From Succinispira mobilis DSM 6222 (GTDB taxonomy: Bacteria > Bacillota > Negativicutes > Acidaminococcales > Succinispiraceae), in the NCBI RefSeq assembly GCF_000384135.1, contig NZ_KB913028.1, positions 1,991,298 to 2,055,297 of the forward strand: a DNA stretch of 64,000 nucleotides, given 5' to 3'. The first letter of the stretch is position 1. Each line of letters starts with the position of its first letter. The notes beneath the pieces were generated by a model. That model searched no databases. It was given only the letters and a program-made list of their open reading frames with translations, and had not been told where the DNA came from. Position numbers and translations under genes: made by a program. This document shows positions 17,544-57,546 of this stretch, piece by piece.

Positions 17544-17690
17544 TACTCATCAAGAGTTAGCTGAGGGAATGGCCCGATGAAGCTGCGGCAACCATGATTT
17601 TTATCAAACGGTGCCAATTCCTGCTATTATATAGCAAGATGGGAAATAGATAACTAAATCTAACTCCCATTTTTGGGAGTTTTTATTTTT
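17544..17690 (+). promoter_or_regulatory. SAM-I (S-box) riboswitch with terminator
   Basis: The aptamer core is intact: CAAGAG, GCTGAGGGAATGGCCC, GATGAAG, GGCAACC and GGTGCCAATTCC in order. P1 forms from CTCATC (17546-17551) and GATGGG (17638-17643). The terminator is AACTCCCA/TGGGAGTT (17662-17681) followed by T's. The 3' strand of P1, ATGGGA (17639-17644), is also perfectly complementary to TCCCAT (17665-17670), the 5' arm of the terminator. This gives the classic OFF switch: SAM binding frees the terminator. Confidence 0.96.
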
Positions 17691-17721: not shown

Positions 17722-18912
17722 ATGTCAAAAATGAAACGACTATTTACCTCTGAATCTGTTACTGAAGGACATCCTGATAAAATAGCCGACCAAATTTCTG
17801 ATTCTGTTTTAGATGCGATTTTGGCTCAAGATCCAGAAGCTCGTGTTGCTTGCGAAACTTTAGTTACTACTGGCCAAGTTCACGTAGTTGGCGAAATCAC
17901 AACATCTTGCTATGTTGATATTCCTAAAGTAGTTCGCAAAACTATTGTTGACATCGGTTATGACCGTGCAAAATATGGTTTTGATGGTGAAACTTGCGGT
18001 ATTTTAGTTTCTATTGATGAACAATCTGCAGATATTGCTATGGGTGTAGATAAATCTTTAGAAGCTAAACAAGGTGAACAAGATTACATCGAAGCTATTG
18101 GCGCTGGCGACCAAGGCATGATGTTTGGTTATGCTAGTAATGAAACCCCTGAATTTATGCCTTTACCAATTTCTTTAGCCCACAAATTAGCTTTACAACT
18201 TACTAAAGTTCGTAAAGATGGCACTTTACCTTATCTTCGCCCTGATGGTAAAACTCAAGTTACTGTAGAGTACGAAGATGATAAACCAGTACGTGTAGAT
18301 ACAATTGTTATTTCTACTCAACACGGTCCTGAAGTTTCTTTAGAACAAATTGCTAAAGATCTTAAAGAACTAGTAATTCTTCCTGTAGTAGATGCAAACT
18401 TACTAGATGAAAATACTAAATACTACATTAATCCAACAGGCCGCTTTGTTGTTGGTGGACCACAAGGTGATTCTGGTCTTACAGGCCGTAAAATAATTGT
18501 AGATACTTATGGCGGTATGGCTCGTCATGGTGGCGGTGCTTTCTCAGGTAAAGATCCAACAAAAGTAGATCGCTCTGCAGCTTATGCAGCTCGTTATGTA
18601 GCTAAAAACATCGTTGCTGCTGGTCTAGCTGACAAATGCGAAATCCAACTAGCTTATGCTATTGGTATCGCTAAACCAGTTTCTGTTTTAGTAGATACTT
18701 TTGGTACAGCTAAAATTTCTGAAGAAAAAATTGCCCAACTAGTACAAAAACATTTTGATTTGCGTCCAGCTGGCATTATCAAAGCTCTTGATCTTCGTCG
18801 CCCAATTTACAAGCAAACTGCTGCTTATGGACACATGGGCCGTACTGATATTGAACTTCCTTGGGAAAAGCTTGATAAAGTCGCTGAACTAAAAAAAGAC
18901 GCTGGTCTATAA
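17722..18912 (+). CDS. metK: S-adenosylmethionine synthase MetK (396 aa)
   Basis: Makes SAM from methionine and [23 protein letters not shown] is the conserved N-terminal ATP-binding segment; [12 protein letters not shown] and the P-loop-like [19 protein letters not shown] are present, and the length is typical. The start at 17722 follows AAGGAGTGATAC; a second Met two codons later is nearly as good. Codon use looks more strongly biased than its neighbours, as expected for an abundant enzyme. It is feedback-controlled by the SAM-I riboswitch ahead of it. Confidence 0.97.
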
Positions 18913-41820: not shown

Positions 41821-42127
41821 AATATGAAGCGATGAGAGAAAGAGTAGCTATAATTTTTTTCACAGAGAGTCAGTAGCGGTGGAAGCTGATATTAAAAGTT
41901 GTAGTGAAGTTCATTCTTGAGCTGTTAACCCGAAACTCTTAGTAAGGTTAACCGTTTCCTGCGTTAAAGGTTCGAGTGAATATATTTATTCAAAAAATGG
42001 GTGGTACCGCGGCTATGTTCGTCCCAAAGCTGACGGTATTTTTTTGTTTTTCTGAGGATAAATATATTAATTTGGGTGGTACCACGGTTATGATAATCGT
42101 CCCTTGTTTACGGGACGATTTTTTTAT
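41821..42127 (+). promoter_or_regulatory. Phenylalanine-specific T-box leader with two antiterminator/terminator modules
   Basis: Stem I carries GATGAGAGAAAGAGTAG, the distal CAGAGAG...GGTGGAAGCTGAT and, on the 3' side, GAA-G-TTC-ATTCTTGAGC. TTC (41910-41912) sits exactly where the specifier GGC sits in the Bacillus subtilis glyQS leader (GAA-A-GGC-ATTCTTGAGC), so the codon is Phe. A first T-box TGGTACCGCGG (42002-42012) is followed by a terminator TACCG/CGGTA with T7 (42005-42045). A second, GGGTGGTACCACGG (TGGTACC at 42077-42083), is followed by a strong terminator AATCGTCCC/GGGACGATT with T7 (42095-42127). No second Stem I exists between them. TGGT complements the ACCA end of the tRNA-Phe in this window. 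Confidence 0.93.
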
Positions 42128-45606: not shown

Positions 45607-46326
45607 TTATAAGATTTTTGATAAAAAACCTTGTGTCCGCTCTTCTTTAGCCTGGCTAAAAATTTCATCAGGAGTCCCGGTTTCCACAATTCGCCCTTCA
45701 TCCATAAAAATTACTCGATCGCCCACCTCTCTGGCAAAACCCATCTCATGAGTTACTACTACCATGGTCATGCCAGTTTTTGCTAAATCTTTCATTACAT
45801 CTAGTACCTCTTTAACCATCTCTGGGTCTAAGGCCGAAGTTGGCTCATCAAACAACATTACTTTCGGCTGCATAGCTAAAGCTCTAGCTATAGCTACTCT
45901 TTGCTGTTGCCCGCCACTAAGATTTTCTGGATAGGCATGGACCTTGTCGCCTAAACCAACCTTATCTAATAGCTCCATTGCTACCTGTTCCGCTTGTTTA
46001 ACATTAATATTTTTTACTTTTAAAGGTGCCAACATAATATTTTGAAGCACCGTCATATGGGGAAACAAATTAAATCTTTGAAAAACCATGCCTACTTCTT
46101 TGCGAATAGCATTAATTGTTTCATTATTTTCTACGGCAATATTATCAATTACAATAGTCCCCGATGTTGGTTCTTCTAAATAATTCAAACACCGCAAAAA
46201 CGTACTTTTTCCTGAACCGCTGGGGCCAATTACTACCACAACTTCATTTTGGGCTATTTCAATACTCACATCTTTCAGAACATGCAAACTGCCAAATTTT
46301 TTATTTAATTTATCAACTTTTATCAT
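45607..46326 (-). CDS. Polar amino acid ABC transporter ATPase (239 aa)
   Basis: GlnQ/ArtP-type ATPase: Walker [17 protein letters not shown]-loop [14 protein letters not shown], signature [16 protein letters not shown], Walker [16 protein letters not shown]-loop [12 protein letters not shown]. Length is exactly that of the polar amino acid group. Overlaps the permease gene by 4 bases. Confidence 0.94.
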
Positions 46327-46979
46327 TTTATATTGTACCTCCGCTCTAAAGCATCCACCAAGCGTGAAATTGCAAAAGTCATAATTAAATAAATAAAAGC
46401 TACAGTTAACCAGATTTCAAAAGAAGAATAGGTACGAGCAATTATCAACTGTCCGCGTCTAGTTAACTCTTCAAATCCAATAACTGATACTAAGGAAGAA
46501 TCTTTTAACATTGCAATAAATTCATTGCCTAACGGCGGAATAACCCTTTTAAAGGCTTGGGGAACGATAATATAACGCATGGTTTGCATCCAAGTCATCC
46601 CTAAAGAACGGCCCGCTTCCATCTGTCCTTTGTCAATAGATTGAATGCCCCCACGAAAAATTTCAGCGACATAGGCCCCACTATTTATCGAACAAGCAGA
46701 AATCGCAGCTATAAACGGATCGATTCTTTGGCCTGTAAGCATGGGCAAGGCAAAATAAATTAGAAAGATTTGCACCAATAATGGTGTACCACGAATAAAA
46801 TCCACATAAATTCTGGCTAAAGCTCTACAAAAAACAAAGTCAGATAATCTGGCTATACCAACTATTAAGCCGATTAACATCCCAAATCCTACACTAAGGG
46901 CAGTTATTTGAATTGTTATCCCAGCACCTTGTAATAACAAAGGAAATGCTTCCATTATCACTTTAAAATCAAATGACAT
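46323..46979 (-). CDS. Polar amino acid ABC transporter permease (218 aa)
   Basis: GlnP/HisM-type membrane subunit with five helices and the [22 protein letters not shown] coupling loop; the N-terminal helix segment [20 protein letters not shown] is typical. No substrate-binding protein gene accompanies the pair, so the binding subunit must be elsewhere. The promoter upstream carries an operator-like palindrome. Confidence 0.93.
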
Positions 46980-47052: not shown

Positions 47053-47077
47053 TAATTACAAAATAGGCAAAATAAAA

Positions 47078-47103
47078 TTTCGGGATAGCGAACTATCCCG
47101 AAA
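47078..47103 (-). terminator. Strong terminator after the structured RNA
   Basis: TTTCGGGATAG and CTATCCCGAAA, perfect 11-bp stem with a four-base loop, followed leftward by TTTTATTTTG. Confidence 0.8.
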
Positions 47104-47109
47104 TATATT

Positions 47110-47334
47110 TTCTTACCAAAAATAACCTAGCTGACCTGGTTTTTGCCCCCACACTCGCCTGCTGGAGTTTTCGCTACTACGCTTGCTTGCCACCTCACTA
47201 CTCACACTCTCGATTTTCTCGGCAGGACTTACTTCTAAGCCGCACCATGCTCACAACACTTTTGGTTGCTTACGTGGATCCTTTTGCCTGCGACTGGCTT
47301 GGATTTGCAACCACAGACCTAAGTCATTTGGATA
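47110..47334 (-). ncRNA. Candidate structured non-coding RNA, about 215 nt
   Basis: Between fliT and the ABC importer lies a stretch visibly richer in G+C than its surroundings, with no credible reading frame on the minus strand. Its two ends pair: CCAAA-TGACTTAG (from 47331 leftward) with CTAGGTTA..TTTGG (to 47116), 13 pairs with a 2-base bulge. Inside, a nested stem is built from GGTTGC/GCAACC (47307-47312 with 47264-47269), ATCC/GGAT and GCC/GGC. Further left are CTTA-GAAG-TAAG and CCTGC/GCAGG. A consensus-like promoter precedes it and T-rich ends follow. Position after fliD-fliS-fliT is where hpf/raiA often lies in Bacillota, so an RNA of the raiA-motif class is conceivable; 6S RNA is another candidate. 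Neither is shown. Confidence 0.6.
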
Positions 47335-47340
47335 ACAAAT

Positions 47341-47369
47341 ATTATATAATTTTCCTAGTCATTTTGCAA
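47341..47369 (-). promoter_or_regulatory. Promoter of the structured RNA
   Basis: Read leftward: TTGCAA, 17 bases, TATAAT, beginning just past the fliT stop. The predicted start near 47334 is three bases before the closing stem of the RNA. Confidence 0.75.
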
Positions 47370-47377
47370 GTACTCAA

Positions 47378-47719
47378 TTATCTTTTTGCATTGATATTAT
47401 AACCAGTATTTGCACTTTGCGCATAAACATCATAGACACTACTAATAGTCTTACGTTGTTCAATTTGGCGCATTAAAAATTTAACTCTATTTAATAATGT
47501 TTTTTCGGCAACTAATAACTCTTGCTTCAAATCTTCATAGGCACCACTACCTACATAGTTATCTGGATCAGGTGCTACCGCAATAAAAGCAATTACTTTA
47601 TCACGTTGCTCCAATAAATCTGCAAACATATCAAAATGTTTTGTGTTTGCAAAATCTTCCAATTCCCGCGTCAAAAAAGCATAATCGGCAAACAATTGCT
47701 TTTTGGTCTTATCACTCAA
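47378..47719 (-). CDS. fliT: FliT-like flagellar chaperone (113 aa)
   Basis: Small all-helical protein directly after fliS, the usual place of FliT, the export chaperone for FliD. Sequence conservation in this family is low and there is no diagnostic motif; helical content, size and position are the evidence. The start proposed is TTG at 47719, seven bases after GGGAAG and four bases past the fliS stop; a longer frame to 47788 would overlap fliS by 65 bases. Confidence 0.6.
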   Translation of the reverse strand: MSDKTKKQLFADYAFLTRELEDFANTKHFDMFADLLEQRDKVIAFIAVAPDPDNYVGSGAYEDLKQELLVAEKTLLNRVKFLMRQIEQRKTISSVYDVYAQSANTGYNINAKR

Positions 47720-47723
47720 ATTC

Positions 47724-48158
47724 TCACTTCCCAAAATCAACTGTGCCTGCAACCGCACTTGCAGCTGGTTGTCCAATTCCTTTGGCAATTTTCATTGCCT
47801 CAAACCAAGCCTCACGCAACTCTTGCAGAACTAGCAAAGCATTTTCGAAGTGAATTTTTTCATGCTTAAAAACACCTTGCCGCAGTTCATATTCAATATA
47901 ATCATAAAGTTTTAGATAGCCTTCTGCCAGTTCTGGATTAACATCAACTTTTAATGTGCAAACAAATTCCCGAATAATATTTTGGGCTTTAATACTAGCC
48001 TCATTAATATCTTTAGGAGCAATATTATTTTCAATACCCATAATCGCTTCCTTGGTAAAGCGGATGGCCCCATCATATAGCATCAAAGTTAGCCTTTCCG
48101 GGGGCATGGTATTAATTTGTTGATTTTTGTAAGCACCTACACCAGTATTATTAATCAC
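47724..48158 (-). CDS. fliS: Flagellin export chaperone FliS (144 aa)
   Basis: Binds the C-terminal helices of flagellin and prevents premature polymerisation. GAYKNQQINTMPPERLTLMLYDGAI is the conserved start of the FliS fold. GTG start eight bases after GGAGG. The C-terminal extension (PAASAVAGTVDFGK) is slightly long. Two giant flagellins in the window are its likely clients. Confidence 0.95.
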   Translation of the reverse strand: MINNTGVGAYKNQQINTMPPERLTLMLYDGAIRFTKEAIMGIENNIAPKDINEASIKAQNIIREFVCTLKVDVNPELAEGYLKLYDYIEYELRQGVFKHEKIHFENALLVLQELREAWFEAMKIAKGIGQPAASAVAGTVDFGK

Positions 48159-48224: not shown

Positions 48225-50057
48225 TTAAGAAGAAGTCCCTCCAAATAAACTACTAGTTTGATTTTGAATTTTTTGTAATGCTTTTTCCATTTGAGCATAT
48301 TGCTTGTAGTAATAATCTTCTTTAGTCGATATCTGTTTTTCCAATAATGTCATCTTATTTTTATAGCTATTAATTTGCTTACCGAGAATACTGGTAACCT
48401 CGGTACTACTATACTGTAAGACCCCAGCCTTATCGTCAATTTTTTCCATGCTACTGGTCATCAAATCGTATAATTTAGCTGCAACTCCTGCCCGACCCTC
48501 TTTCTTATCGCCTGTCCCCGAAAAGATTTTGGCAACAGCCGTAGGATCTTCTGCTAGAGCTGTTTTTAGCTTATCTTCATCTAAATATAATTTGCCGCCT
48601 TCTTTCCAGTTACTACCTGTGGAAATTCCGATTGCCGCAGCATTTTTATATTTACCATCTATGCCCTCAATACTAGTTATCATAATATTGCGCATACTGC
48701 TCGTTAGCCCAGTTAAGATATCATCATTTTTAAGCAAACCACTTTTAGCCAGTTTTTCCCATTTTTCAACTTGAGTTTCACTAAGTTTGCTTTCTTCATC
48801 TTCAGTAAGTGGCTTATAGGTGCGATATTTAGTTTCATTAGCTTTGTCAGTTGTATAAGTTAATAAAGAATTATACAACTCAACAAAGGATTTCATGTTA
48901 GCAACAATCTTATCCACATCTTGCTCTACCGTAACATTCGCTTCGCCCAAACCAGTCAAATTATAGGTAATTCCAGCAATGGAAAAGGAGTTACTAGCCT
49001 GTTCTAAGTCCGTCACACCATCTAAATCAAAAATTGCATTTTGCCCTTGCGTCCGTGCTGGCAACTTATCGCCGCCATCGGTACCCAATTTCAACCCCTG
49101 CTTAAGGAATTTTAAGCCTGCGGCATCAGTACCGGTAAAATCAACTTTTTTGCCATCCTTGCCGACAATCGTAAAGGTATCCGCGACTTCATCATAGCTA
49201 GCGGTAACTCCAGCATCAGAGCCATTAATTGTACTAAGCATATTTTGCATGTTTTTGCTAGCATCTAAAGTTATTTCTTTACCATTGATACTAATTTTAA
49301 AAGTCTTAGAATCACCGGTAAACTCTGGCAATACATCCTTGCCGGCAAACTGTGTCAGCAAAGTAGTTTTAGTGCCAGAACCTAGTTTTTCACTACTACT
49401 ATCTTGATAATTATAGTTCATCTTTAACGCATTGGTTAAAAATTTCATGCCCGCATCACTAGTTCCAGTAAAATCAATTACCCCTTCAGAGCCAGTTTTT
49501 TCACTAATCAGAAATACTCGATCCATCGTCACATCATAAGTAGTCTTAACCCCTGCTCCCGCTGAATTGATATTAGATAATAATTGATTTAAGCTAGCGG
49601 TTGGATCAACTTTGATTTCTTTCCCATTAACAGTTATCGAAAATTCACTCGACAAACTTACATCCGTAGCATTAGCAAACTGAGTTTTCAAGGTGGTTTT
49701 GTTTTCAGCCGAAGCCATTTTTTCCGAACTACCTACACTCGCAGCTTTAGCCAATTGTTTAACCTTTAGTGTATGTGGTACATTAAGAGCATCCGAATTA
49801 GCCTTTGCTGTAACTACTTCTTTATTACTAGTATTAGAATTAACCGGGCTAACCGTAGCACTCAACTTGTACTCCGTCATTTTCGCTCTAAATTCCGCTT
49901 CTTTAGTATAAATAGTTTTATACTCATCTTTCTTCCACTCAGCAGTAGTCTTATTCTTATATTCCTTATCATAACGGTCTTGATAAGGTTGAACCATGGA
50001 TTTTACAATATTTTCCACGTCCATCCCCGAAACTAAACCGACATTTCTTACCGTCAT
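48225..50057 (-). CDS. fliD: Flagellar filament cap FliD (610 aa)
   Basis: Cap that guides flagellin polymerisation. The N-terminal NVGLVSGMDVENIVKSMVQPYQDRY and the C-terminal coiled region (KMTLLEKQISTKEDYYYKQYAQMEKAL) are typical FliD D0/D1. The middle holds two related modules of about 115 residues: ITVNGKEIKVDPTASLNQLL with VIDFTGTSDAGMKFL, and ISINGKEITLDASKNMQNML with KVDFTGTDAAGLKFL. This internal duplication makes it longer than the roughly 450-500 residues common for FliD. Ribosome binding site AGGAGG. Confidence 0.95.
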   Translation of the reverse strand: MTVRNVGLVSGMDVENIVKSMVQPYQDRYDKEYKNKTTAEWKKDEYKTIYTKEAEFRAKMTEYKLSATVSPVNSNTSNKEVVTAKANSDALNVPHTLKVKQLAKAASVGSSEKMASAENKTTLKTQFANATDVSLSSEFSITVNGKEIKVDPTASLNQLLSNINSAGAGVKTTYDVTMDRVFLISEKTGSEGVIDFTGTSDAGMKFLTNALKMNYNYQDSSSEKLGSGTKTTLLTQFAGKDVLPEFTGDSKTFKISINGKEITLDASKNMQNMLSTINGSDAGVTASYDEVADTFTIVGKDGKKVDFTGTDAAGLKFLKQGLKLGTDGGDKLPARTQGQNAIFDLDGVTDLEQASNSFSIAGITYNLTGLGEANVTVEQDVDKIVANMKSFVELYNSLLTYTTDKANETKYRTYKPLTEDEESKLSETQVEKWEKLAKSGLLKNDDILTGLTSSMRNIMITSIEGIDGKYKNAAAIGISTGSNWKEGGKLYLDEDKLKTALAEDPTAVAKIFSGTGDKKEGRAGVAAKLYDLMTSSMEKIDDKAGVLQYSSTEVTSILGKQINSYKNKMTLLEKQISTKEDYYYKQYAQMEKALQKIQNQTSSLFGGTSS

Positions 50058-50556: not shown

Positions 50557-51468
50557 TTATTTTTCTGCAAACCAAGCTTTTGTATGTTTAATCCCATTAT
50601 TCCAAGAATAAATTTGTTCTTGATAATATAACCTTTGCATAATTGTTGCCAAAGGTTTTACAATAATATCTTCATTGCGAATTTTATCAATACCTGCTGC
50701 TTGCAAGCGCTCTGCTTGTTGCTCATCCACTACAAAGCTATCGCGTGGACGCTCATAAGTTAGATACACTAAATTCTCATTGCTCATGAAATATTTATAA
50801 GTAACTGGATTGAACTGGAAATTATGCATCCAAAGTTGTAAATGTTCTGGTACAGAACGTTGTACATAAGCCAAGTGTTCAAAGTTCTCGGGTTGCAAGA
50901 TTTTATCAAAGTTGCGCGTCGCAAAATCTTGATAAGTCACATTTTTAAGTTCTAAACCATATACGGGATCGACCATAAACCACTCTTGACTTAGTTCATC
51001 CCAAATCTCTAGCAAACGATGTATAACAACTTTACCAGTAACTGAATATATTGGTAATTGTCTACAAGGTATTTTAAGTTCATCCATATAAAAATTAATT
51101 AAATCAAACCCTGTAGTATCTGCTAACTTGCCTGATATATTCAACAAATATTCTACCCGCGTCGATTGAATTACGCTAATATTTTGATCATAAATGCAAT
51201 TGAGCAACCCTGACACTAGCGCTCGCGTATCTTCTTGATAAACGATTTGTTGAAAACTATGCTTTACATCTAAAGTTTCTGGATCTAAAGAGTAAAAACG
51301 ATATAGGCCTTCTTGTTCTAAATAATATTTTTGCCCAGCAAAATCATACAAACCTACCGTAGTAAGCAATGTGTGTGGAAAAGGTCGAGCAGATAAATGC
51401 TGCTGTTCTTGCTGAGGAAACAATTCCCGAATATGCATTTTATCATAATGTGTCACTACTAATTTCAT
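50557..51468 (-). CDS. Transglutaminase-like protein in the flagellin modification locus (303 aa)
   Basis: Not firmly recognised. Residues about 120-170 follow the transglutaminase/cysteine protease fold pattern: KIPCRQLPIY corresponds to the usual GIPAR strand, IHRLLEIWDELSQEWFMVDP to the H-x-W...W..vDP segment, with His150 and Asp167. The catalytic Cys normally 15-20 residues before GIPAR is not at its place (ADTTGFDL); Cys135 in IPCR is displaced. It may thus be a pseudoenzyme or use a shifted nucleophile. Placed between maf and flaG, so a role in flagellin maturation is inferred only from position. ATG at 51468 follows AAGGAG. Confidence 0.55.
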   Translation of the reverse strand: MKLVVTHYDKMHIRELFPQQEQQHLSARPFPHTLLTTVGLYDFAGQKYYLEQEGLYRFYSLDPETLDVKHSFQQIVYQEDTRALVSGLLNCIYDQNISVIQSTRVEYLLNISGKLADTTGFDLINFYMDELKIPCRQLPIYSVTGKVVIHRLLEIWDELSQEWFMVDPVYGLELKNVTYQDFATRNFDKILQPENFEHLAYVQRSVPEHLQLWMHNFQFNPVTYKYFMSNENLVYLTYERPRDSFVVDEQQAERLQAAGIDKIRNEDIIVKPLATIMQRLYYQEQIYSWNNGIKHTKAWFAEK

Positions 51469-51494
51469 TTGCAAGTTTCTCCTTTCTAACCGCA

Positions 51495-53345
51495 CTATTG
51501 TCTTACGAAAATAACTCTATTAATTTCTGGGCGTTCTTGTAAATATTCCTCAGCTAGAACAACTGCCGCATTAACATATTCTAGCAAACGTTTATTAACT
51601 AGATATAGCCCTTCCCACAATTCATATTTATATTCACCTAAATCCAGCAACAATGCTTCATTGATATCAAAAACAAAGTTTTCTTTCATCATTTCCAAGA
51701 AAATCGCATTTTGATCAAGTTCTTTAAAAACATTTATGGCCTTACTAATTATTTCATAATTTTTGTTGCCTTCATCACAGTGATTTATTTGTAATAAAAT
51801 AGTTTTTTGTTCTAAAAGAAGTTTTTGTAAAAGTAACATATCTTTTTTATATCCCGCTGCATATTGTTTCGCCAATTCCTGTTTTCGGGCTATTAATCCT
51901 AAAGATTTTTCCGAAATTTCTTTAATGGTGCTTTCAATATCAGTTTTGTTTTTCAACTCTTTGTCAATAACCTGACGCAAAGTCATATTGCGGGCGCCAA
52001 TTATAGGTAAACCACCTTCAGTCGCATTAATAAATTTGCAGTTCGGCGCTGTTTCAATAAACCTTTCTATCGCTCTTTTCATACCAATAAATACATCCGA
52101 TGAGTAAACTGTCTTACCATTAATATCCTGTAACAAAATGCTATTATCACTTTGATTATGCCGACTCCCCTCAGACCACGAACCTTTAGCATGCACCTTA
52201 TTACCATAAAAACAACAGTCTTGTCCGACCATAACGACTTTTTTACAACCCATTTGCACCGCAATAGCATGGGCAATATTTACTACTGACAAGCCACCCG
52301 TAGAAATTAATAAATCCTCGGAAAAATACTTATAGGCCGCTATAGCGATTTTATCCATCGCATCAATCGCAAAAGTAAAAATACTACCTTTATATTCTCG
52401 AAGCAAAGGACTATATACTGAATAGGAGCAAATCAGAGGAATATCTAAATCTTTCGTGTTTGCAAAAATTCTGTTAGCCAAATCACTGCCATCTACAGCC
52501 ATATGAAAATGAGGTTTTATGCCATGCTTTGCCAAAACAGAAATCGCAGTCCCCGCAGCAATTATTATGGCCTTGTCTCTAGCTTCTTGCAACAGGGAAA
52601 TATTTTTTTCCAAAGAAGCCCCCGCAGCAACCACAATGCAAGTATTACGTGCAAACAGTTCTTTCAAATGCAATAAATTAGCCGTCTTTGCTTTTAAAAC
52701 ACTCCAATTATGAATTAACCAAGTGTTTCTCCAAAATTTACGTGTAACGTCCATAATATTTTTATCAGTTAAAGCAATTTTGGTGCATTGGCAAATCTTC
52801 AAAAAAAACTCTGTAAACAAGGTTAAGTAACTAACAAATGGTAACACTACTATTTTTTCGTGCTGCCCAACATTGGTAAGTGTTATAATTGTCGATTCTA
52901 CCTGTTCAAATTCATCGGCAACAACCAAAACTAGCTCCTCCGAATTTACTGTATTGGTAAATTCCGTTAGATATTCTGATAAATTATTATATTGCAACCA
53001 TTTGTAAAATAAACCAATGCTAGGAATAACGATAAAGATTCTTTTTAGTTTTTCAAAATACCTAGCAATTGTTATTAATTGCTTATTATCTGGCAGTCCA
53101 AAAAGACATAACTGTTCTATTTGCTTAGGTTTATTTTTTATTAATTGTTCGATTTCCCGAGTCTTATTATAAATACTATGCAAATAAATATTTTTTTTGC
53201 CCTGCTTAACCCTTATTTCACAAGCATTTTCGTCCCACTCGATATTCTTAGCATAACGATTATTTTTTTCATAATTTCTTACTAATTCCAATAAATCTGT
53301 TCTATAACCTTTTAAAAACTCTTTATTATTCTTTAAGTAGTTCAT
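51495..53345 (-). CDS. maf: Motility accessory factor, Maf (DUF115) putative flagellin glycosyltransferase (616 aa)
   Basis: Maf proteins transfer nonulosonic acids (pseudaminic or legionaminic acid) to Ser/Thr of flagellin in the cytoplasm. The central DUF115 domain is clear: CIVVAAGASLEKNISLLQEA, PHFHMAVDGSD, STGGLSVVNIAHAIAVQMGC and VMVGQDCCFYGNKVHA. Flanking N- and C-terminal helical regions are typical of MAF_flag10 proteins. No sugar biosynthesis genes are in the window. ATG at 53345 overlaps the preceding stop by one base (TGATG). Confidence 0.88.
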   Translation of the reverse strand: MNYLKNNKEFLKGYRTDLLELVRNYEKNNRYAKNIEWDENACEIRVKQGKKNIYLHSIYNKTREIEQLIKNKPKQIEQLCLFGLPDNKQLITIARYFEKLKRIFIVIPSIGLFYKWLQYNNLSEYLTEFTNTVNSEELVLVVADEFEQVESTIITLTNVGQHEKIVVLPFVSYLTLFTEFFLKICQCTKIALTDKNIMDVTRKFWRNTWLIHNWSVLKAKTANLLHLKELFARNTCIVVAAGASLEKNISLLQEARDKAIIIAAGTAISVLAKHGIKPHFHMAVDGSDLANRIFANTKDLDIPLICSYSVYSPLLREYKGSIFTFAIDAMDKIAIAAYKYFSEDLLISTGGLSVVNIAHAIAVQMGCKKVVMVGQDCCFYGNKVHAKGSWSEGSRHNQSDNSILLQDINGKTVYSSDVFIGMKRAIERFIETAPNCKFINATEGGLPIIGARNMTLRQVIDKELKNKTDIESTIKEISEKSLGLIARKQELAKQYAAGYKKDMLLLQKLLLEQKTILLQINHCDEGNKNYEIISKAINVFKELDQNAIFLEMMKENFVFDINEALLLDLGEYKYELWEGLYLVNKRLLEYVNAAVVLAEEYLQERPEINRVIFVRQ

Positions 53346-53623
53346 CAACACTCCTCCAATAAACAGCTTTTTATAAATTCATAGAGCTTGTACTCCAAAA
53401 TATCCGCCGTTAACAAATAGTCCGCTTGTTCCACGCTATTTAAGAGCTCTAAGAAAATTGTATTTAGTTGTTGAATTTGTATTACTGAAAAAATATCACC
53501 CTGTTGCAAAATGTATTCCATTAATTCTAAAATTCTATCCGCCAATTTTTCCACTTCATTATTAAAAATATTTTGCTGAATTTGTAAGATTTTTTCACTA
53601 ATATTGGTTAGATGTGTGTTCAT
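53345..53623 (-). CDS. Hypothetical helical protein upstream of maf (92 aa)
   Basis: Not recognised. Predicted almost entirely helical (ISEKILQIQQNIFNNEVEKLADRILELMEY), acidic, with Cys near the C-terminus (KSCLLEEC). ATG at 53623 lies ten bases after GGAGG; a longer frame would start inside the flagellin terminator. One-base coupling with maf suggests a shared function, for example chaperoning Maf or flagellin. Confidence 0.65.
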   Translation of the reverse strand: MNTHLTNISEKILQIQQNIFNNEVEKLADRILELMEYILQQGDIFSVIQIQQLNTIFLELLNSVEQADYLLTADILEYKLYEFIKSCLLEEC

Positions 53624-53724: not shown

Positions 53725-56700
53725 TTATCTTAAAAGTTGTACAACGCCTTGTGGTTGTTGGTTAGCTTGCGCAAGCATAGCTTGAGCTGCTTGATTTAAG
53801 ATATTGTTCTTTTGGAAGATAGTCATTTCTTTAGCCATATCTAAATCGCGAATACGAGATTCAGCGGCAGATAAGTTTTCAGAAGCTGTTCCTAAGTTGT
53901 TAATTGTATGTTCTAATCTATTTTGCATTGCCCCTAGTAAGCTTCTTTGAGAAGATACTTTAGTCACTGCATTATTGATAGTTTCAATTGCAACTTGAGC
54001 CCCAAATTTGCTAGAAATATCTACTTTATCTACACCGATAGCTTCTGCACGCATATCACCTACAGAGATAAACGCTGTTTGACCAGAGTTAGCACCGATG
54101 TGAGTTAAGATAGATTCATCAAGGTTTGTAGATGCAGCTTCCGCTTTACCGAATACATAAGTTACGCTATCGCCAACTTTCATGTTTTCGAAATTAAGTT
54201 TTACAGTTGCGCCTTCACCTTGAAGACCAGCTACAGATTTGCTTAAATCTAATGAACCATCATCATTAAATTTAACTGTGTTTTGTTTACCAGTGTTGTC
54301 TACTAATTTGAACTCATTGCTCATTTCATCAGCAAGAGCTGCTTTAGTTTTAGTTGCTACTTCACTATCCGCTACTACATTAGCTTTAGTGTTGAATTTA
54401 GTACCATTGTCAGTAGTCATTGCTGCTTCAATAGCTACTTGTAATTCAGCTTTATTGAAAGTGTCTGGCAATTCTGTTGCCAAAGCTTCTTTCGCAAGGC
54501 TAACTGCTTTGTTCATAGTTTCTGTAGCTACCGTAGTATCTGCAGTAACTTTAGCTTGAGTATTTACATCGCCATAAGTACTAGTAATTAATTTTTCCAT
54601 GATTGCATCATTGATGGAACCAGTGCCAATCAAGTTGTCAAGTACTTTTTTAGCTTCTACTTTTTGATTTTCTACAGCAACTTTATAAGTTTCTGTATCA
54701 TCAGTAGCTATCTGTCCACCTTCAAGAACTACTTTATCAGCTAATTTGCTAGTTAACTCTGCTGTTAAACCTAACTCTTTACCAGCTTGAGCTACTTGTT
54801 CTTTCATAACTTTAGTTACTACACTCTTATAAGCATCAGTAGCTTTAATAACATTAACAGTACTAGCCACTGAACCATTAGCTGATACAGCCATATCAGC
54901 TGCTACGTTAGCAACTTCAGCCATCGCACCATTAGCTACTGCTTTTGCAGCAGCACCAGTTTCCATGTCTTTTACTAAAGCCGCTTGATAAGAAGTTGTA
55001 CCTTTAATTGTTCCAGAAGTATTAACAGCAGTTGCGGCTACAGCCACACCACTTGCATCTGCAATAGTTTGAGCCACTTCTTCACTAACCCCTTTATTAA
55101 GAGCTGCGGTTTTTGAAGTTGCTTTTAAATCCTTGTTAAGAGCCGCGGTGTATTCAGCATCACCAGTTGCATATCCTGCTGATGCAGTAGTTCCACCTTG
55201 AAGAACTACTTTATCACCAATAGTATTAGCTAATTCAGTCGATACACCTTTAGCCAAAGCCGCTCCTTGAGCTGCTGTTACCATGTCAGCCCGAACTGCC
55301 GCTACATATCTTCCATCAGTCAAAACACTTGCTGCTGTTACTTGCGTTGCATTAACAATTGCTATTTCGGCAATGGTTTTCGCTACATTAGCTGAAACCC
55401 CTTTAGACAAAGCAGATTCTTCCGCTTTACTACGCGCATAAGTATCAAGTGCAGTTTTATATACAGACTTAGCAGTTACATTTGCGTCAGCAGCCTCTAC
55501 CGTCATATCTGTTATAGTTGCTTCAGCTACAGCATTAGCCATCGCTTTCGAAACACCTTGTGATTGCATAAAAGCAGAAACCACTTCGCGTCCTGCAGTT
55601 TCAACAACTTTTTTAAAATCACTACTTGCTAGAACAGTAGCTGTAGTTTTTACAGCTAATCCACTAACCATAATATCTGCTGTGGCTTTTGCTGTTTGTG
55701 CTGAAGATACAGACATACTATCAATTGCCCGATCTTTTGCTTCACCACTTACTACTGTTTGGAATACGAAGTTAGCTTTTACTTCTGTATTAGTTTTTAC
55801 TTCTGTACCAGAAACAATAGCGTCTGCCATTGCCTTAGATATTGCCTCGCTGTTAGTTTTCTTAGCTTCTTGGTAAGCAGCATTTTTCATAATGTCAGAC
55901 ATAGCATTTTTGTAACCAAGGTCCATTTTTACCATGCTTTCATCATTAGTACTACCATCATCATTTACCGCAACTTTGGCAATTGCTGCAGCTAATGTAG
56001 TGTTACCAGTCATTTCTACTGCTTTATTAGTAATAGCATTAGTAACCGCGGCTTTAGCATTATCGGTCATGGCTTTTTTCACAGTGGCTTGTACCGTAGC
56101 TGAGTCCGCATTACTTGCTAAAGCATTTACCGCATTTAACATTTTATCTACTACAGCACTACCCATAACATCGCGTACTGCTGAACTATCAAGGGCATTA
56201 GCGGCTTGAGCTTTCGCGTCAGCTGCATCAACATATTGTTTATTAGCTAAGCCATCAAGCACTGCTTTTACATTAGTCCCAACTCCTACAACATCATCTA
56301 AGTTACTCTCGATACTGGTTTTAATAGCCGTAGCTGCATTTTTAGCAGCAGTTATTGCTGCTGTAGCTGCCTTAATAACACCTGTCGCTGCAATATATCC
56401 ATCTCCTAAAACTGAAGAAGCGCTATTCTTAACGAGTCCAGCCTTATCAATAGCACTGGCAATCGCACCAGTAACTGCCGCCACCGCTAAAGAAACCGCA
56501 TGAACTGCAGAACCTGCCGCTGTAGAAGCCGCATTTTCTACCAATACTGCAGCATTTACTGCTGCCGTTACGGCTACAGAAGCTGTATTTTGCAATGTTT
56601 CCGCTGCATTTACCGCTGCAGCTACCGCTGCATCGCCAACACCTTTAATGCGGCCAGCTTCATCTTTAACGATATTTAATTGAGTGTCACTCATGCTTGC

Positions 56701-57432
56701 TTTGTTAGCTGCTGTACGCAATTTATTAAGCATTGTGCTGTCTACTTTTAAGTCTTCAGCAACTTTAATAGCTTCATTAACTGCATTGGCTACTTTATCA
56801 GTAAAACCAGTACCAGCTGCAAGTGTTTTTTCAATCGCACCAGCGATATCTTCTACAACTTGGTTAGCATCGCTACGGATAAGCATGAATGCACCATCAA
56901 CACCTACAGTTTTAGCTGCTTCTGCTAATTTTTCCATACCTGCTTTATCAATTGTCAATGCTGAGTTGTTGTTAACTTTTACTGAACCTTCAACAGCATC
57001 TTTAACACCTTTAGCTGAACCGTCAAGTAATTTCTTAGTATTGAACTCAGTAGTGTTACCGATACGGTCAATTTCAGAAATCAATTGTTTTACTTCGTTT
57101 TGAAGTTCTTTACGGTCGTCATCAGTGTTTGTATCATTTGCGGATTGTACAGAAAGTTCACGCATACGTTGAAGAATGCTGTGTGTTTCATTCAATGCAC
57201 CTTCAGCAGTTTGAATCAAAGAAATTGTATCTTGAGAGTTACGGCTTGCTTGATCAAGACCGCGGATTTGCGCTCTCATTTTTTCAGAAATCGCCAAGCC
57301 TGCAGCATCGTCACCAGCGCGGTTGATACGAAGACCTGAAGAAAGTTTTTCTAAGTTTTTAGAAGAATTTTGAGTGTTTGTGATCATTTGGCGATGAGTA
57401 TTCATCGCAGAAATATTATGATTGATAATCAT
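53725..57432 (-). CDS. Giant flagellin (1235 aa), probable major filament subunit
   Basis: N-terminal D0/D1 ([36 protein letters not shown]) and C-terminal D1/D0 ([34 protein letters not shown]) are canonical. About 950 residues lie between them, dominated by Ala-rich helical repeats of roughly 50 residues (for example [17 protein letters not shown] and [17 protein letters not shown], each with a V..GG or V..AT strand and Y..A segment). The module with [11 protein letters not shown] and IGANSGQ before the C-terminus is shared with the flagellin at 275-4009. The start is ATG at 57432 after AAGGAGGA (57441-57448); the longer frame covers the leader. A sigma-28 promoter, CsrA-type hairpin, and adjacent csrA, fliW, fliS and maf suggest this is the main flagellin. 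Confidence 0.95.
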
Positions 57433-57440
57433 GGTTAATA

Positions 57441-57473
57441 TCCTCCTTGATATTTTTATTAGGCATCCTTGCC
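57441..57473 (-). promoter_or_regulatory. CsrA-type binding sites in the flagellin leader
   Basis: GGCA-AGGA-TGCC (57462-57473) is a hairpin with AGGA wholly in the loop, the preferred CsrA target. The second GGA motif is the Shine-Dalgarno AAGGAGGA itself (57441-57448), 13 bases closer to the start. The pair matches the two-site layout of the Bacillus subtilis hag leader, where CsrA blocks ribosome binding. Confidence 0.75.
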
Positions 57474-57546
57474 CTTTTTTTGTATAATAAACAGTTTTGG
57501 AAATTTTCGGCCGATATAATCTCCTCAACTGTCACTATCAACCCTT

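Follow-up and report, generated by a model that had tools for sequence, protein, structure and literature searches.

The locus that follows the flagellar genes on the minus strand of the window (the whole stretch of 64,000 nucleotides analysed here) carries the raiA motif, or ModT, in its complete form. This abundant structured RNA of bacteria was known before, and the confirmed finding adds one member to its family. The locus is very probably a single raiA-motif RNA gene with its own promoter, a two-pseudoknot fold, short and long transcript forms, and an action in trans on the growth transition. Positions of the features are collected in Table 1.

Identity and composition of the RNA

Comparison of the whole window with Rfam by cmscan yielded a match to RF03072 (raiA RNA) of 187.4 bits (E ~5e-50), the gathering score of this model being 101.3 bits, and the match covered model positions 1-209 of 209. 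A first-pass annotation of this DNA had offered a raiA-motif RNA as its first guess, with 6S RNA or a new class as alternatives, and had proposed a covariance-model search against Rfam as a check. This search bears out the first guess with a strong, full-length match, and both alternatives are excluded: RF03072 is the sole Rfam match at the locus, where no 6S RNA model matched. The 2.085-Mb genome contains one copy of the raiA-motif RNA. Two further structured RNAs, both well above the Rfam cut-off, were observed in the window, namely a T-box leader at 41823-42029 (+) upstream of an ORF at 42104, and a SAM riboswitch at 17544-17645 (+) upstream of an ORF at 17722.

Table 1. Positions in the window of the RNA, its predicted signals and its neighbouring genes
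Feature	Position	Strand	Basis
raiA-motif (ModT) RNA, full length	47122..47327	-	Rfam RF03072; covariation in 60-sequence alignment
Sigma-A-type promoter TTGCAA-17-TATAAT, predicted +1 near 47334	47341..47369	-	Scan and conservation
P1 3' flank with TTTTT, outward extension of P1, likely end of short transcript (~215-220 nt)	47112..47121	-	Sequence, duplex fold
Intrinsic terminator (12-bp stem, 4-base loop, T-rich tail), likely end of long transcript (~263 nt)	47070..47104	-	Scan, analogy with ModT(L)
FliT-like gene, upstream of RNA	47378..47788	-	Position; BLAST cluster with the gene between fliS and RNA in relatives
fliS	47724..48158	-	PF02561, E 2e-25
fliD	48225..50057	-	PF07195 and PF02465
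Amino-acid ABC transporter permease, downstream of RNA	46323..46979	-	PF00528; same downstream gene in many relatives
Amino-acid ABC transporter ATPase, downstream of RNA	45607..46326	-	PF00005

The G+C contrast noted earlier was also found: the RNA has a G+C content of 50.5%, a value attained by just 0.9% of 206-nt windows, versus 34-38% in the permease gene, fliS and fliT and 26% in the stretch that separates the permease gene from the RNA. In agreement with the earlier remark that no convincing minus-strand frame is present, no minus-strand ORF of at least 40 aa overlapping the RNA was found. On the plus strand, two ORFs (50 and 71 aa) cross the RNA in antisense at 47183-47402 (+) and look mechanical. 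A protein-coding reading is therefore rejected as far as the sequence can tell, given the lack of a 40-aa minus-strand ORF and the mechanical appearance of the 71-aa one.

Fold and covariation

The fold was assessed in a 60-sequence alignment that joins this RNA to 59 homologues found within its taxonomic class, counting the structure of the Rfam model together with P3a and P3b; helix names follow the text of PMC11751092, which reports the structure of the C. acetobutylicum raiA RNA. Standard pairs were found in 97.9% of cells and two-sided compensatory changes in 24 of the 52 pairs (carried by 384 cells), figures to be read with the caveat that the homologues were collected with the same Rfam model and so lean towards its structure, while the MAFFT alignment used no structure. 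Pairing fell to 87.7% when shuffled and to 28-47% when partners were slid by 1-3 columns, and none of 500 shuffles reached the observed values of pairing and covariation. P1, P3a, P3b and the hairpin helices were recovered independently by RNAalifold. At the level of sequence comparison, the covariation with relatives that the first-pass annotation had suggested examining supports the raiA fold and, together with the RF03072 match, its notion of an independent structured RNA.

Individual elements follow the family pattern closely. Both ends pair, as had been noticed, to form P1, which was extended outward in the duplex fold. P3a (RNA positions 24-27 with 47-50) and P3b (30-32 with 40-42) are 100% paired, and P3a contains a compensatory double change, C27-G47 in this genome versus G27-C47 in 59/59 relatives. 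The pseudoknot pk-1, described from the cryo-EM structure as an unbroken run of seven pairs that joins the P3 loop to the P5-P6 junction (PMC11751092), is formed here by positions 33-39 with 84-90 in 7/7 pairs; in the class alignment it is 98.8% paired, with compensatory changes. By homology and covariation, the transcript would thus fold into the compact two-pseudoknot raiA structure. A nested stem of three tiers had been proposed from the sequence. Its two inner tiers, ATCC/GGAT and GCC/GGC, are the conserved helices P3a and P3b, whereas the family structure has no counterpart of the outer tier, GGTTGC/GCAACC. That tier is pairable in 247 of 354 cells of relatives and was rejected because the same bases belong to other helices, GGTT to P1 and GCAAC to the P5 hairpin, whose pairs hold in 99-100% of cells.

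Promoter and transcript ends

The sigma-A-type promoter predicted earlier is present, its end lying 14 nt upstream of the start of the RF03072 model. Taken alone, it is not above chance in the region (four found, 3.4 expected). Conservation carries the argument: a promoter-like site scoring at least 9 of 12 occurs at this position in 58 of the 60 class loci versus 21% of shuffles, and an exact TATAAT is located 3-25 nt upstream of the RNA in 51/60 versus 1.6 expected in shuffles. The site is conserved downstream of flagellar genes, of comF and of other genes alike, and the RNA is therefore its own gene. By sequence and conservation, then, the RNA has an independent sigma-A promoter, as is reported for C. 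difficile ModT (PMC11706538), and would be transcribed leftward from this housekeeping promoter. The RNA had been placed as starting three bases after the +1; this has to be corrected, since the RF03072 model begins at 47327, about 7 nt past the predicted +1.

This conservation also bears on a rival reading in which the RNA would arise chiefly from transcription of the flagellar genes, as the 3' end of a fliD-fliS-fliT message, and would act in flagellar regulation. The RNA starts about 50 nt past the fliT stop, the scan found no terminator between the two, and fliD or fliS is upstream in 15/60 loci. However, the RNA's own promoter is conserved also where comF (ComF is upstream in 9/60) or unrelated genes precede it, and in a C. 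difficile modT mutant the flagellar operon was not down-regulated (PMC11706538). Such an origin is considered highly unlikely.

Two 3' ends are predicted. The first, at the poly-U beside P1, is weak by sequence, and about 45 nt beyond it the terminator expected from the first reading was found at 47104-47077. Strict terminators were detected in 10 of 59 relatives versus six in one shuffling round. In C. difficile, ModT(S) and ModT(L) are reported to be 215 and 260 nt long (PMC11706538); the lengths of ~215 and ~263 nt predicted here fit these isoforms. By this analogy, transcripts from ~47334 would end at P1/poly-U or at the terminator, likely giving a short form of ~215-220 nt and a long form of ~263 nt.

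The terminator weighs against a reading of the RNA as a cis-acting leader or riboswitch for the amino-acid ABC transporter genes that lie downstream of it. The transporter is indeed the next same-strand gene here and in many relatives (the permease follows the RNA in 38/60 loci), and the Rfam type label of RF03072 is "Cis-reg; riboswitch". Nevertheless, the RNA is bounded by a strong terminator, the permease gene has a promoter-like site of its own upstream (47052-47024), and the downstream genes vary among relatives, other genes being present at the f32 and f33 loci. In addition, modT mutants of C. difficile and C. acetobutylicum are reported to be complemented in trans (PMC11706538). Control of the transporter in cis is thus extremely improbable.

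Genomic neighbourhood and separation from hpf

The local gene order is flgL-DUF6470-fliW-flagellin-MptE-like-312 aa-flaG-fliD-fliS-fliT-like-RNA-ABC permease-ABC ATPase. The RNA had been described as lying directly after fliD-fliS-fliT. Pfam confirms fliD and fliS; the third gene has no Pfam match and is FliT-like by position and BLAST clustering. The flagellin is very large (1267 aa, 53725-57528 (-)), with standard N and C ends. It adjoins the MptE-like gene (51495-53351), and nonulosonic-acid-synthesis-like sugar genes lie beyond the window (L179); these two observations suggest from sequence that the flagellin is glycosylated. The gene at 50557-51495 (-), flanked by flaG and the MptE-like gene, encodes a protein of 312 aa without a Pfam match.

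In the 60 class loci, where genes were called as plain ORFs and grouped by BLAST, each cluster being named from the sequences in it, Hpf was found within 8 kb downstream of the RNA in 34, usually with SecA and PrfB next. The order common to many relatives is (fliDST or comF)-RNA-ABC transporter-hpf-secA-prfB. In the present genome, hpf is at 739073 and hpf-secA-prfB are contiguous at 739-743 kb, between 0.8 Mb (on a circular contig) and 1.3 Mb from the RNA. A search of the window, of the 12 kb adjoining it and of an 18-kb region around hpf found no comF. Proximity to raiA/hpf or comFC, which is common (66%) and not obligatory in the family, is therefore lacking here. Because hpf-secA-prfB remain contiguous far away and are joined to RNA-transporter in many relatives, a rearrangement has most likely broken the block at the transporter-hpf junction. 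The suggestion that the RNA had lost its neighbour is accordingly right as to the linkage and wrong as to the gene, which the genome has kept.

In comparison with the RF03072 family, this member shares the full-length sequence and structure including pk-1, the sigma-A-type promoter, the poly-U and terminator, and the single copy; it differs in that hpf/raiA is not nearby and fliDST and two transporter genes flank the RNA. The C-G pair in P3a, where relatives have G-C, distinguishes it from the 59 class relatives. Its place is slightly unusual, since the usual partner lies elsewhere in the genome; in C. difficile, too, hpf is not downstream of the RNA (PMC11706538). That the RNA is a decayed, non-functional copy left after hpf moved away is scarcely credible: hpf-secA-prfB are separated from it and its score is slightly under that of most relatives (187 versus up to 202 bits), but it retains the near-invariant positions and an intact promoter, selection has continued, as the compensatory double change in P3a shows, and no other copy exists in the genome.

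Distribution and variants in the class

In a scan of the class, raiA RNA was found in 182 of 381 genomes. It is present, for example, in the tractable laboratory strain Veillonella parvula SKV38 (L127). Most other families have the RNA, whereas in the large sister family f20 it was absent in 20/20 sampled genomes, with every candidate scored; the numbering of the class scan implies about 189 f20 genomes (G098-G286) without it. The RNA was absent also, with every candidate scored, in an Anaerovibrio, two Selenomonas and a Pectinatus.

Weak RF03072 matches in relatives were considered as a shortened variant, and three of the four are artefacts (two contig ends and one N gap). The fourth (L075 1501-1605 (-), genome G067) is a raiA RNA with intact P1 ends that lacks about 100 nt of its interior and contains no N; it may be a naturally shortened form or the product of misassembly. 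An enlarged raiA RNA was observed in genome G036 (L090 8001-8285 (-)), with a second GCAGCTTAGAAGTAAGTCCTGCCG copy in the hairpin region, a partial internal duplication.

Proposed function

The raiA/ModT RNA is highly conserved. It is reported to be very abundant and trans-acting, and in C. difficile neither Hfq nor KhpB was found to bind it (PMC11706538; PMC11751092). Deletion of ModT is described as delaying entry into stationary phase, raising c-di-GMP and lowering sporulation, and loss of the RNA in clostridia as altering c-di-GMP level, sporulation and aggregation (PMC11706538; PMC11751092). A c-di-GMP link is demonstrated in C. difficile only. By analogy with clostridia, the best function for the present RNA would be that of a trans-acting RNA of housekeeping type that times growth-phase transitions: an abundant, stable RNA would act in trans and help the cell pass from growth to stationary phase.

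The host differs from C. difficile in that no Spo0A match was found in its genome, and the clostridial sporulation phenotype is therefore probably not applicable. With 27 GGDEF matches in the genome, a role of the RNA in c-di-GMP control is possible. A stronger version, in which the RNA was freed from hpf and kept by flagellar genes because its core role is c-di-GMP/motility switching rather than ribosome hibernation or sporulation, is judged unlikely.

The clean, family-wide absence makes f20 a natural comparison group for a co-loss screen, aimed at genes that come and go with the RNA. The present locus represents a flagellated, Spo0A-less host whose raiA RNA is unlinked from hpf. Given its distance from hpf and its own promoter and terminator, the RNA is most likely not a cis regulator of hpf in this genome, and the unlinking weakens models that assume such an action in cis.
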